From Sphingomonas sp. CCH10-B3 (GTDB taxonomy: Bacteria; Pseudomonadota; Alphaproteobacteria; Sphingomonadales; Sphingomonadaceae), in assembly GCF_001556185.1 (NCBI RefSeq), contig NZ_LSIJ01000078.1:1-24163 (forward strand): a stretch of DNA of 24,163 bases. The letters are read 5' to 3'. The notes beneath the pieces are model-generated. The model was not told the origin of the DNA and made no database searches. It was given only the letters and a program-made list of their open reading frames with translations. The position numbers and the translations under genes were made by a program. Positions 11,804-21,732 of the stretch are shown here, in pieces; within the stretch, counting starts at the first letter, position 1; each line of letters begins with the position of its first letter.

Positions 11804-11832
11804 AAACGGGGAAGAGTAGATCGAAGGGCACT

Positions 11833-12528
11833 CTAGCGCTTCGGCGTGCAGGTCACCGCGCCGCCGCCGGTTGCGGTCACGCGGCAGGCAGGCGTTCCCG
11901 CGACCGTGACGCCCCCCAACCCGCTCGAGACGATTTCGGCGGTGTAGCGCGCCGCGACGCGGACGTCGCCCGTCCCTGCCGCCGTCACGAACAAGTCGTT
12001 GGCGATCAGGCCGCTCGCTTCATAGCTGCCCGGCCCGGTGATTAGATAGCGCGCGCGCCCCGCCCTGCCCGCCAGCGTCATCGTGCCGGCACCGGTGACG
12101 GCGGCGTTGAGCTGGTCGGCATCGACCGCAGCGACGTTGAGCAGCCCGGCGCCGTTGATCGACAGATCGATCCGCTGCGCCGCCATCCGGTCGACCGCCA
12201 GCCGTCCCCCGGCATTGACGTTGACGCCGCGCAGCACCGGCGTGCCGAGCGTAATGCTCAGCAGCCGAGGCGGCGCGGGATCGCGTGCGCCTGACGCCGG
12301 TCGCTGGCGGCGCACGATCAGCGTCTGCCCCTCGACCGTCAGCGTAAGCCCGTCGAGCGCGGCGGGATCGCCCTCGGCCTGCGCGCTCGGCGGGCGCCCG
12401 GTCTTCACCCGCACGTCGAACGGGCCGTCGATCCGGATGCGGTCGAAGCTGATGACGCTGTAGCGACGCTCGGCAGCGTCGGCGGGTGCAGCGAAAGCAA
12501 GCACGGCGAAGGCGGCGGCGATACGCAT
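11833..12528 (-). CDS. DUF2807 (GIN domain) exported protein
   Basis: The 231-aa product starts MRIAAAFAVLAFAAPADAAE, a Sec signal peptide cleaved after ADA. An in-frame extension to 12663 is ignored because it overlaps the upstream gene and has no signal sequence. The body RYSVISFDRIRIDGPFDVRV is the DUF2807 opening, followed by repeated short beta segments with turns such as NAGGR, NGAG, TGAG, GPGS and AAGTG, consistent with a right-handed beta-helix-like head-GIN domain. The C-terminus has a Cys pair in CRVTATGGGAVTC, parallel to CTTNKMGSGDVRC of the neighbour. The function is unknown; the family is described as putative adhesin-like. It lies 37 bp downstream of its paralogue in the same direction, probably one operon. 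Confidence 0.8.
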   Translation of the reverse strand: MRIAAAFAVLAFAAPADAAERRYSVISFDRIRIDGPFDVRVKTGRPPSAQAEGDPAALDGLTLTVEGQTLIVRRQRPASGARDPAPPRLLSITLGTPVLRGVNVNAGGRLAVDRMAAQRIDLSINGAGLLNVAAVDADQLNAAVTGAGTMTLAGRAGRARYLITGPGSYEASGLIANDLFVTAAGTGDVRVAARYTAEIVSSGLGGVTVAGTPACRVTATGGGAVTCTPKR

Positions 12529-12565: not shown

Positions 12566-13295
12566 TCATTTGCCGCAGCGCACGTCACCCGAGCCCATCT
12601 TGTTGGTGGTGCAGGTGGCACCAGCACCGAGATCGACATCGCCCGACCCCATGATCGACACATTGGCCGGACCGTTCACCTCGGCAACGGCCGCTCCCGA
12701 CCCGGCGATCGACACATTGGCCGACTTCGCCTTTAGTCCGCGTGCCTGCACTTCGCCCGACCCGGCAATGTTGATCGCCAGCCTGTCCGCCTGGCCGGTC
12801 GCCTCGATGTCGCCCGAGCCGGCGACCGACAGATCGACCGAAGGTGCGTTGAGTGCCGCAATGCGGATATTGCCCGATCCCTCGGTCGAGGCGGCAAAGC
12901 TCGCCCCTTCGGCGCGACCGATCGTCATGTCGCCCGAACCGCTGACGCGGGCCTTCGCAATCCGCGGCATCGTCACATAGATGCGCGCGCTCTTGCTGTT
13001 GCCCCAGCTCCAGTTATCGTCGTCCTTGCGGGCAATACGGAGCGTGTCGCCGACGCGCTCGATTTTCAGCTGGTCGAGCACCTTCGCCGGGCCTTCGGCG
13101 CGGATCGTGAACGCGCTGGCGATCTTGATGTCGACATCATCCGATCCGTGCAGCTCGACGCCGGTGAAATCGCGCTCGGCAAAAGTGCGGCTCGTCCCGC
13201 GTAAGAGACAGGTGCTATAAGAGACAGGTGCTGCCCTGCGCCGAAGCCGAACAGGCCGCGAGCGGTACCATCATCGCCAGAAGGATCATGCGCAT
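12566..13295 (-). pseudogene. DUF2807 (GIN domain) lipoprotein, frameshifted by a 16-bp tandem duplication
   Basis: From ATG 13295 (GGGAG 7 nt upstream) the frame encodes MRMILLAMMVPLAACSASAQ, a lipoprotein signal with lipobox LAAC. It then meets TAG at 13215-13217, after 26 codons. The rest of the protein is open in another frame, beginning GTSRTFAERDFTGVELHGSD. It carries at least seven GSGD/GSGN/GSGE-type turns about 20 residues apart and ends CTTNKMGSGDVRCGK. The break coincides with two adjacent 16-bp units (13201-13232). Removing one unit restores a single frame of about 237 codons joining the two parts. The downstream portion could still start at GTG 13081, but it would lack a signal peptide. 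As written the gene is broken; whether this is real or a sequencing/assembly artefact is open. Confidence 0.75.
13201..13232. repeat. 16-bp tandem duplication with Tn5 mosaic-end-like core
   Basis: The two units, GTAAGAGACAGGTGCT (13201-13216) and ATAAGAGACAGGTGCT (13217-13232), differ only at their first base. Positions 13216-13227 read TATAAGAGACAG, identical to the last 12 bases of the 19-bp Tn5 mosaic end used in transposase-based sequencing libraries. The duplication causes a +1 frame change in the DUF2807 lipoprotein gene. Confidence 0.85.
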
Positions 13296-13423: not shown

Positions 13424-13957
13424 TCAGGCGACTTCCTTGTCCTTGTTGTGGATCGCGGCGGCCTTGCGCAGGATCTCAAGGATCTTTTCCTGCGCGGTCG
13501 GCTCGTCGACCTGCTCCATCGCCGCCAGTTCGCGCGCGAGGCGGCTGGTCGCGGCTTCGAAGATCTGGCGTTCGGAATAGCTCTGCTCGGGCTGATCGTC
13601 GGCGCGGAACAGGTCGCGAACCACTTCGGCGATCGACACGAGGTCGCCCGAATTGATCTTGGCTTCATATTCCTGTGCGCGGCGCGACCACATCGTGCGC
13701 TTGACGCGCGGCTTGCCGGTCAGCGTGTCGAGCGCCTCGCGCAACGTCTTGTCGCTCGACAGCTTGCGCATGCCGACGCTCTCGGCCTTGTTGGTGGGAA
13801 CGCGCAGCGTCATGCGTTCCTTTTCGAACCGCAGCACATAGAGTTCGAGCTGCATCCCCGCGATTTCCTGGCGTTGGAGCTCGATGACACGGCCGACACC
13901 GTGCTTGGGATAAACGACATAATCACCGACGTCGAAGGACAGCGCCTTGGCAGCCAT
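13424..13957 (-). CDS. carD: CarD-family transcription regulator
   Basis: The 177-aa product opens MAAKALSFDVGDYVVYPKHG and VGRVIELQ, the Tudor-like RNA-polymerase-interaction domain of CarD. The helical C-terminal DNA-binding domain contains VPTNKAESVGMRKLSSDKTL, then PRVKRTMWSRRAQEYEAKI and GDLVSIAEVVRDLFRADDQP with YSERQIFEAA. CarD binds the RNA polymerase beta subunit and stabilises open complexes, notably at rRNA promoters, and is widespread in alphaproteobacteria. The start at 13957 is chosen because AAAGG lies 9-10 nt upstream and the conserved protein begins there; longer in-frame extensions run to 14062. It has its own AT-rich promoter in the 269-bp gap after fdxA. A low-complexity tail after about residue 155 ends KDKEVA. 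Confidence 0.93.
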   Translation of the reverse strand: MAAKALSFDVGDYVVYPKHGVGRVIELQRQEIAGMQLELYVLRFEKERMTLRVPTNKAESVGMRKLSSDKTLREALDTLTGKPRVKRTMWSRRAQEYEAKINSGDLVSIAEVVRDLFRADDQPEQSYSERQIFEAATSRLARELAAMEQVDEPTAQEKILEILRKAAAIHNKDKEVA

Positions 13958-14102
13958 TCTTGAAAGCCTTTCTGTGGTCATTTCCCGATAAGCGCGCTCG
14001 CCTCCGGCCATAACGTGACGGTCGGACGGCGCGATCGGGGATAGGGGTGTGCAGGTCTCCAAGCAGCAAGCGCCTATGCAGCGCTACTGTTCCGAGCCAT
14101 TT

Positions 14103-19169: not shown

Positions 19170-20870
19170 TCAGCGCCCCTGTGCGCGCCAGCGGCGGATC
19201 GTTCGGCCGATGATTTCCTCTTCCTGGCCGACTTCGCGCCACAATACCGAAAACAGCGGATCGGCCGAGGCAGGCCGCTTGATTTCCTCAAGGTCGTCGA
19301 ACGACACGCGCACGGGCACGCCCACGCCTTCGCCGCAGACGATGCATTCGCGGTTACGCAGCGCCGGGATCGAATCGAGGAAACCGCGCGCGCCTTCGGG
19401 CATGGCGGCGCGCACGAACGACTGGTCGCGATCGTTGTTGAGCCGCATCGAAATGATCGTGCCGCACTGTGACAGCACGCCTTCCGCAAGGTCCGACGGG
19501 CGCTGCGTGATCAGCCCCAGCGACACGCCATATTTGCGGCCTTCCTTGGCGATGCGGCTCAGGATCTTGCCGACCGACGAGCCATTGGCATTGGCTTCAT
19601 TGGGAATGTAGCGGTGCGCCTCCTCGCAGACGAGGAGGATCGGGCGCTGCGGCTCGCTACGCGACCAGATCGCAAAATCGAACACCATCCGGCTGAGCAC
19701 CGCGACCACCACCGACGTAATTTCGGACGGCACGCCCGACACATCGATGATCGAAATCGGCCGCCCGTCGCCGGGCAGGCGGAACACGCGCTCGATAAAA
19801 TTCGCCATCGTGTCGGCTACCAACATGCCCGAGAACATGAAGCTGTAGCGCGGATCGCCTTTCACTTCGTCGATCTTGTTCTTCAGCCTCATGTAGGGCG
19901 CGGTGTCGCCGGCGCGATCCATCTTGCCCATTTCATTGGTGATGATGTTGGTCAGGTCCGACAGCAGATAGGGAATCGGCGCGTCGACCGTCAGCTTGGC
20001 GATTTCCTGGCCGATCCGCCCCTTGCTGCGCGCGGCGAGCAGGCATTTGGCGAGAATGTCGGCATCCTGCTGCCGCTCGCTGCCCGATGTCGTGAGCAGC
20101 ACTTCGCAATGCTCCTCGAAGTTCATCAGCCAATAGGGCATTTGCAGGTTCGACACGTCATAGATCGCGCCGTTGGTCTTGAACGCAGCGCCATATTCGC
20201 CGTGCGGGTCGATCATCACGATATGACCCGACGGCGCGAGCTCGCAGATGCGATGCAGGATCAGCGCGGCGGCAGTCGATTTGCCGGTACCGGTCGAGCC
20301 GAGCAGCGCGAAATGCTTGCCGAGCAGCGCATCGACATACAGCGCGGCCCGGATGTCGCGGGTCGGATAGACGGTGCCGATGCCGACATTGGCGCGATCG
20401 TCGGCGGCATAGATTTGCTGGAGATCGGCCGTCGACACCGGGAAGATCGGCGTGCCCGGTGTCGGATAGCGGGTGACACCGCGCCGGAATTTGTAGAGCT
20501 TGCCGGTCAGCTTTTCCTCGTCACCTTCGCCGAGGAAATCGATTGCCGCGACAATGCTGTCCTCATGCCCGTCGAGCAGTTTCAGCGTGCGGACATTGGC
20601 GATCAGCCACGCATTGCCGACGCGCATCTTGACCTGGCTGCCGACTTGCCCGGCAGCGGCAACGACCGGGTCCGGATGCATGCTGAGCGCGTCCATGGCC
20701 GCGGCATCGAGCAGCACCTGGCTCGACGAGCCGGCAATTTCGAACACCACGCCGAACCCGCGCGACATGTCATAATGCATGGGCGCGCCCGCCTGACTCG
20801 GTGCCTGACTTGGTGCCTGACCCGGCGCCTGACCCGGCGCCTGGCTCTGGGTAGTGAGGTGGTCGCTCAT
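19170..20870 (-). CDS. HerA-like DUF87 ATPase
   Basis: The 566-aa product is a FtsK/HerA-superfamily ATPase. After a repetitive Q-A-P-rich leader (residues 8-30) comes a HAS-barrel-like beta domain (35-130). Walker A is GSTGTGKS (191-198), the segment VMIDPHGEYG follows, and Walker B is ILLVCEEAH (411-419). The sensor region is LGLITQRPSDL with QCGTIISMRLNN. HerA proteins are hexameric DNA translocases; archaeal ones pair with the NurA nuclease and some bacterial ones with defence effectors. No nuclease, Sir2 or DUF4297-type partner is adjacent, so a solitary housekeeping role is more likely. ATG 20870 is preferred, with GGGGG 10 nt upstream; ATG 20879 is also possible. The stop lies in a small hairpin (19164-19181). 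Confidence 0.85.
   Translation of the reverse strand: MSDHLTTQSQAPGQAPGQAPSQAPSQAGAPMHYDMSRGFGVVFEIAGSSSQVLLDAAAMDALSMHPDPVVAAAGQVGSQVKMRVGNAWLIANVRTLKLLDGHEDSIVAAIDFLGEGDEEKLTGKLYKFRRGVTRYPTPGTPIFPVSTADLQQIYAADDRANVGIGTVYPTRDIRAALYVDALLGKHFALLGSTGTGKSTAAALILHRICELAPSGHIVMIDPHGEYGAAFKTNGAIYDVSNLQMPYWLMNFEEHCEVLLTTSGSERQQDADILAKCLLAARSKGRIGQEIAKLTVDAPIPYLLSDLTNIITNEMGKMDRAGDTAPYMRLKNKIDEVKGDPRYSFMFSGMLVADTMANFIERVFRLPGDGRPISIIDVSGVPSEITSVVVAVLSRMVFDFAIWSRSEPQRPILLVCEEAHRYIPNEANANGSSVGKILSRIAKEGRKYGVSLGLITQRPSDLAEGVLSQCGTIISMRLNNDRDQSFVRAAMPEGARGFLDSIPALRNRECIVCGEGVGVPVRVSFDDLEEIKRPASADPLFSVLWREVGQEEEIIGRTIRRWRAQGR
20791..20838 (-). repeat. 12-bp tandem repeat encoding Q-A-P-G/S
   Basis: Four consecutive 12-bp units (20791-20802, 20803-20814, 20815-20826, 20827-20838) plus a degenerate fifth encode the repeated tetrapeptide QAPx near the N-terminus of the HerA-like ATPase. 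The last two full units are identical. Copy number may vary between strains without changing the reading frame. Confidence 0.8.
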
Positions 20871-20973
20871 GCAAGTCATGCCCCCGGGAATGCATCTGTC
20901 TGACGCATAACCTTGGCAGGGCATTGGTAAATTTAGCGTGTTGATGGCGCCGGGCGCGCTGCCCGAGTCAGGG

Positions 20974-21732
20974 CTAAAGCCGCCGCGCAATCCAGCCCGC
21001 CGCCCAGCCGAACAGCACCGACAGCGCAACCGCGACCAGCCCATAGGTGATCGAGTGCCGATCGGCGGCGCGCGCGACGAAGCGTTCAAACCCCGATTTG
21101 CGGATGTCGATCTCGCGCACGGCGGCGGCGAGCACGCGCCCCTTGCGGATCAGGAAGGTCTCGGCGGTGAAGCGCCCGACCGGCACGCGCGCGGGGATGT
21201 TGAGCCGGGCGCGGTAGAGCACGCCATCGGTGATCTCGACTGCGCCGGGCGCTTCGAAATAGAGCCTGCTGCGGCGCTTCAGATCGACCAGCCCGCGCAC
21301 GAACCGCTCATTCTCCTCGGGTGCTGCGCCGCTCGCTGGCGAAAGCTGCAAGCTGTCGAGCCCGATTTCGTAGATCGCCCGGTTGCGTTCATCGAGCAGC
21401 TGGTTGATCGGCTTCGACGAGGCGAGTGCATAATAGCTCGGCGCCGAAAGGTAGCGCATCCGCGCCGCATTGACCCAGATGCCGGCGACCTTCTGCTTTT
21501 CGCGCACCAGAATCGACTGCGACGGGCCCTTGATGACGACGACGATATCGGCATCGCGCTCTTCGGGCACGCGCCCGCCAGGATAGAGGATGGCGCCGAA
21601 CAGCAGCAGTTCGGCGCCCGTGAAGCTGTAGGCGATTTCGATGTCGCGCTGCGAGACATCGGGCACCAGCACCGGCTTGGCCTGCCCCATCAGCAGCGGC
21701 AACGCCGCGAGCAGGGCCAGCGCCCGTTTCAA
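20974..21732 (-). CDS. TIGR02186-type exported membrane protein
   Basis: The product is 252 aa from TTG 21732, which overlaps the TauE/SafE stop (TTGA). That start yields a clean signal peptide MKRALALLAALPLLMGQA, whereas GTG 21768 would add a charged leader. The mature part begins VLVPDVSQRDIEIAYSFTGA and ELLLFGAI, the hallmark of the TIGR02186 family. The protein ends with a membrane helix (ITYGLVAVALSVLFGWAAGW) and a basic tail, so most of it faces the periplasm, anchored at the C-terminus. From memory of alphaproteobacterial genomes, this family is commonly found beside TauE/SafE-type transporters, which suggests a joint role in export of a sulfur-containing anion. The function is not established, as far as I know. 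Confidence 0.82.
   Translation of the reverse strand: MKRALALLAALPLLMGQAKPVLVPDVSQRDIEIAYSFTGAELLLFGAILYPGGRVPEERDADIVVVIKGPSQSILVREKQKVAGIWVNAARMRYLSAPSYYALASSKPINQLLDERNRAIYEIGLDSLQLSPASGAAPEENERFVRGLVDLKRRSRLYFEAPGAVEITDGVLYRARLNIPARVPVGRFTAETFLIRKGRVLAAAVREIDIRKSGFERFVARAADRHSITYGLVAVALSVLFGWAAGWIARRL

Follow-up and report, generated by a model that had tools for sequence, protein, structure and literature searches.

Does a lipoprotein gene of Sphingomonas sp. CCH10-B3 carry a genuine frameshift, or has its assembled sequence been altered by sequencing adapter? The question arises at positions 13201-13232 of a contig of 24,163 nucleotides (the whole stretch of DNA that was analysed, called the window below), where two adjacent units of nearly identical sequence separate the start of the gene from its main domain. 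An earlier note on this DNA set two explanations against each other, namely a slippage or duplication mutation, possibly phase-variable, and an artefact of adapter-containing or over-trimmed reads at a natural CTGTCTCTTA site. Sequence comparison with homologous proteins, related loci and assemblies of the genus now leads, with high confidence, to the reading that the tandem is residual Tn5 mosaic end adapter assembled in place of about 17 linker bases, so that the pseudogene would be false.

Gene layout at the site

The interrupted gene is read from the minus strand and is present in the window as two pieces:

13215..13295, minus strand: lipoprotein gene piece 1, running from the start through signal peptide and lipobox into the first linker residues and closed by TAG (13217-13215)
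12566..13200, minus strand: lipoprotein gene piece 2, with the head-GIN domain (DUF2807) preceded by the last part of the linker, in a different frame

Piece 1 translates as MRMILLAMMVPLAACSASAQGSTCLL followed by the stop; MRMILLAMMVPLAACSASAQGST covers the start, the signal peptide and the lipobox, the latter two features having been assigned by eye. The frame of the GIN domain, translated from 13216, is open down to 12566, and the GIN piece matches Pfam family PF10988 with an E-value of 2.6e-38 and 132 bits, compared with a curated cut-off of 24.2. Translation bears out the description in the earlier note, according to which the frame of the signal peptide and lipobox stops at 13217-13215 and the GIN domain lies in another.

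A second DUF2807 (GIN) gene (11833-12528, minus strand; PF10988 E-value 2.5e-35) is located directly downstream of the lipoprotein gene, and paired PF10988 matches also stand side by side in genome G001 and several other genomes. Just upstream is a CarD-family gene (13424-13987, minus strand; PF02559 and PF21095). The order of the CarD and lipoprotein genes is conserved in two Sphingomonas MAGs (L001 and L002), each of which aligns in one piece across the CarD gene. Over the site both MAGs align unbroken at 82% identity, between window positions 11831 and about 19208, which indicates that the flanks are true neighbours and that only the local letters are doubtful. Elsewhere in the window, Tandem Repeats Finder reports a 12-bp tandem repeat at 20790-20847 (4.8 copies, 84% match), which lies inside a minus-strand open reading frame (19170-21089) with a HerA-like DUF87 domain, is translated there as QAPGQAPGQAPSQAPSQ and is a candidate variable-number repeat.

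Composition of the tandem block

The two 16-mers at 13201-13232, GTAAGAGACAGGTGCT and ATAAGAGACAGGTGCT, are adjacent and differ at the first base only, exactly as first described, and Tandem Repeats Finder places the repeat at 13202-13232 with a period of 16, 1.9 copies and a 100% match. Its G+C content is 47%, compared with 67% for the window. For the Tn5 mosaic end of tagmentation libraries, the parts of PMC4248319 and PMC2229646 considered here give the 19-mer AGATGTGTATAAGAGACAG, and with this sequence the letters at the site can be assigned as follows:

13201..13227, strand not applicable: foreign block of 27 bases, replacing about 17 natural bases, with edges accurate to 1-2 bases in either direction
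13201, strand not applicable: single joint base, apparently in agreement neither with the mosaic end nor with the codon that the intact relative P0003 predicts (see below)
13202..13211, plus strand: adapter remnant 2, TAAGAGACAG, the final 10 of the 19 Tn5 mosaic end bases
13212..13215, plus strand: 4-nucleotide echo GTGC, repeating the genome that begins at 13228
13216..13227, plus strand: adapter remnant 1, TATAAGAGACAG, the final 12 of the 19 Tn5 mosaic end bases

The identification of the junction with the final 12 mosaic end bases, already made in the earlier note, is thereby confirmed at 13216-13227. Both remnants end exactly at the last base of the mosaic end, the boundary between adapter and insert, and are then followed by GTGCT; on the plus strand, genomic sequence takes over after the block, with GTGCTGCCC from 13228 onwards. 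Under Markov models trained on the remainder of the window, the 12-mer is expected 8e-5 (order 1), 7e-5 (order 2) and 2e-5 (order 3) times when both strands of the window are counted. The 8-base core AGAGACAG is less telling, with a shuffle mean of 0.29 and two copies reached in 2 of 100 shuffles. The window was also searched for other adapter fragments: further mosaic end pieces of at least 9 bases are absent, as are 10-base pieces of the TruSeq 12-mer. Beyond the 12 nucleotides of remnant 1 the window reads GCAC rather than CACATCT, so neither further mosaic end nor index adapter follows; the missing run-on would be expected only if the adapter tail had been partly trimmed. The block is placed mid-contig, at 13.2 of 24.2 kb, and not at a contig end.

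Comparison with an intact relative

Searched against proteins, the GIN piece gave 1,981 matches, and the best 120 of these include P0003 (NCBI label Sphingomonas aquatica), one continuous protein of 239 residues. This protein is found on 6 contigs, compared with a single contig for P0004, the truncated product of the window; that contig has 24,163 bases, as does the window. The signal-peptide piece of the window is identical to the first 23 residues of P0003 (23/23), and the GIN piece, from GTSRTF onwards, is identical to its last 210 (210/210). Between these identical halves P0003 has the six linker residues DGAGSG, which are missing from the window, and the lipobox with its signal peptide and the GIN domain, which occupy different frames in the window, share one frame in P0003. 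DGAGSG cannot be read in any minus-strand frame of 13180-13260, and the foreign block contains no GG, from which it follows that the block is a replacement and not a copy. Codon arithmetic from the P0003 protein suggests that about 17 bases would fill this place in the intact gene, compared with 27 in the window, and the net gain of 10 bases would account for the frameshift.

The DNA encoding P0003 is absent from the 295 genus genomes (247 matched, with a best identity of 80%) and from a separate contig scan (5 loci, the best sharing 80% of residues). PMC12210278 names a type-strain genome, GCA_037173185.1, from which P0003 may come. Two other window proteins have best representatives at 96% (120 of 306 matches listed) and 95% (27 matches) with no S. 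aquatica name listed, in a protein database clustered at 90% in which a representative may hide an S. aquatica member. The agreement of both flanks suggests that P0003 comes from a very close relative of the window's organism, which need not be the same strain.

Linkers were parsed in 116 of the 120 listed homologues (all except P0004, P0016, P0077 and P0088) and are 13 to 25 residues long. No parsed linker contains cysteine, and none of the 120 listed homologues has CLL within its first 60 residues. For linker DNA, 49 related loci were collected. Parsing gave 42 linker DNAs, 30 of them distinct, and left 7 loci unparsed; a search of the 42 for three adapter pieces of 7 or 8 bases found no match. 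Across the 49 loci the 12-mer is absent, and the 10-mer CTGTCTCTTA is present in two (L016:2786-2795 and L044:2753-2762), both from genome G083, which probably represent a single natural copy shared by overlapping loci and lying beyond the parsed linker. In the comparison with related sequences that the earlier note had proposed, P0003 lacks the block at the protein level and the 42 linker DNAs lack the adapter pieces tested.

These comparisons bear most directly on the explanation in which a single natural CTGTCTCTTA in the linker was doubled by adapter trimming or mis-assembly. One unit would preserve the frame by arithmetic, and the 10-mer does arise naturally now and then, as the two G083 loci illustrate. 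However, P0003 is identical on both flanks and reads DGAGSG at this place, and the linkers of the relatives offer neither the cysteine or CLL that such a site would encode nor the tested adapter pieces, which makes this explanation very unlikely. The artefact proposed in the earlier note is therefore upheld in kind, as tagmentation adapter that produces a false pseudogene, but its over-trimmed or duplicated natural site is not. Similarly, the observation that deleting 16 or 31 bases brings the gene back into frame is correct as arithmetic, since both numbers are 1 modulo 3, but the linker so restored would carry residues of the CLLR kind, which are seen in no parsed relative.

The 12-mer in assemblies of the genus

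The base rate of the 12-mer was obtained from 295 genomes of the genus, in which CTGTCTCTTATA has 62 copies in 15 genomes and a reversed control pattern has 13 copies in 12 genomes. The number of genomes is hardly above that of the control, and the excess of copies is concentrated in a few of them (24 of the 62 in G281, 17 in G119 and 6 in G003). Places are listed for 47 of the 62 copies, for the 12-mer only, and 44 of these 47 are at contig ends and point outward. On the minus strand, 24 listed places are no more than 72 bases away from a contig start, with 2 others in the interior; the 21 on the plus strand comprise 20 no more than 60 bases away from a contig end and one in the interior. The sequence was inspected at 21 of the 44 end places: 17 had the exact mosaic end up to the contig limit or through all 19 bases, many of them extending into index-adapter bases, and the other 4 (L057, L059, L060 and L061) had the mosaic end with one or more differences. 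The three interior places (L062, L072 and L073) have no mosaic end continuation and are probably natural. The end placement together with the run-on into the mosaic end indicates that the 12-mer in this genus is mostly residual adapter and sometimes natural.

Mosaic-end adapter at contig ends, often with index bases, was observed at L050-L061 and L063-L071, in genomes G119, G066, G281, G003, G096, G026, G232, G268 and G125. A tandem 10-mer within 30 bases occurs in none of the 295 genus genomes, contaminated ones included, and no second example of a doubled artefact was found among them.

Explanations that place the block in the cell

If the mosaic-end block were truly in the cell, either as a scar of a laboratory transposon or as a mutation that replaced sequence, the GIN lipoprotein would really be lost; this is judged highly improbable.

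In slipped-strand phase-variable genes for surface proteins, the number of adjacent repeat units sets the reading frame. The window resembles such systems in having adjacent units that affect the frame, and a real slippage or duplication mutation, possibly phase-variable and switching the lipoprotein off, would account for two near-identical 16-mers that shift it. Slippage copies existing sequence, however, and neither unit is present in the intact copy P0003; moreover, unlike the units of slipped-strand repeats, those of the window are the end of a synthetic adapter and stop at the adapter boundary. The number of units is 0, as inferred at the protein level, for P0003 on its 6 contigs and 2 in the window contig, a comparison of two sequences only, with no other isolate of the species found among the 295 genus genomes or in the contig scan. 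The absence of the unit from P0003, the lack of a comparable tandem 10-mer throughout the genus set and the lack of cysteine in the parsed linkers leave slippage scarcely credible, and the phase-variable duplication advanced in the earlier note is not sustained. A natural duplication in general was rejected on the same ground, because the repeat unit is absent from the linker of the intact relative.

A real scar left in the cell's DNA by a mosaic-end laboratory transposon or by an IS50 end would explain why the letters match the Tn5 mosaic end. The natural outside and inside ends of IS50, we presume, each differ from the 12-mer, so that only the synthetic mosaic end would remain as a source. 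The block comprises only 27 bases without a transposon body, and both remnants have the same orientation. Insertion of Tn5 produces a 9-bp target duplication, as stated in the part of PMC4248319 considered here, but the 9-mers flanking the block agree at only 3 of 9 positions, so no such duplication is present. The footprint was accordingly rejected, and the chance of a scar is considered negligible. A coverage gap caused by a hairpin was also rejected as a candidate, because the 131-nucleotide strand 13160-13290 folds no better than shuffled sequence (z 1.39, with equal or better folding in 185 of 200 shuffles), although this sequence bears the artefact and is uninformative on the natural linker.

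Proposed origin of the block

Adapter incorporated during assembly explains the tandem far better than any of the rivals, and apart from the interior position the case is an ordinary one. On the minus strand, GGGCAGCAC may have been the last genomic sequence of a tagmentation fragment, in which case reads from short inserts would have run into CTGTCTCTTATA. Incomplete trimming would then have left 10 to 12 adapter bases, the tails of which formed a contig end, and the neighbouring contigs may have been joined or gap-filled over these tails with loss of the true bases, about 17 in number. Under such a sequence of events, reads clipped at 13228 would carry CTGTCTCTTATACACATCT tails. The weakest part of this account is the 4-base echo with the shorter second remnant, for which no mechanism has been derived. 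Several observations count against an artefact: the block is placed mid-contig, whereas 44 of the 47 listed places in the genus are at contig ends; the 12-mer has no CACATCT run-on, in which it resembles the three interior, probably natural, places; the 12-mer hardly exceeds its control by number of genomes; the doubled form has no second example in the 295 genus genomes; and neither the DNA of P0003 nor an S. aquatica name for the two other window proteins turned up in the collections covered. The artefact is favoured despite these points because the otherwise identical P0003 lacks the block and because the block is letter-exact adapter, twice.

Relation to known contamination and to the lipoprotein family

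In the portion of PMC11536531 considered here, exact adapter letters are reported in 1,110 of 15,657 MGnify reference assemblies (p < 0.01), with TruSeq adapter concentrated at contig ends, and adapters are described as able to inhibit the merging of contigs. The window is similar to these cases in that exact adapter letters are present in a published contig far above chance. It differs in that the adapter is the mosaic end rather than TruSeq, and is doubled, mid-contig and in place of natural bases inside a gene; that portion of PMC11536531 describes no interior mosaic-end replacement. Among the papers listed by a literature search, as judged from titles and the openings of abstracts, there is no evident case of a false bacterial pseudogene caused by adapter, although this cannot prove absence.

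With respect to the gene family, the window gene is like the Sphingomonas head-GIN lipoproteins (DUF2807, PF10988) in that both its halves equal P0003, and differs only in that a stop and a frameshift stand where P0003 has its six linker residues. The case suggests a kind of contamination that contig-end trimming would miss, in which a short interior remnant replaces bases and shifts the frame. For the organism, the tandem is most likely an artefact and its reading as a biological switch is not favoured. The lipoprotein gene is probably whole, so that 'pseudogene' or 'on/off lipoprotein' would be a false call, and reading the block as adapter removes one false pseudogene and one false candidate for phase variation.
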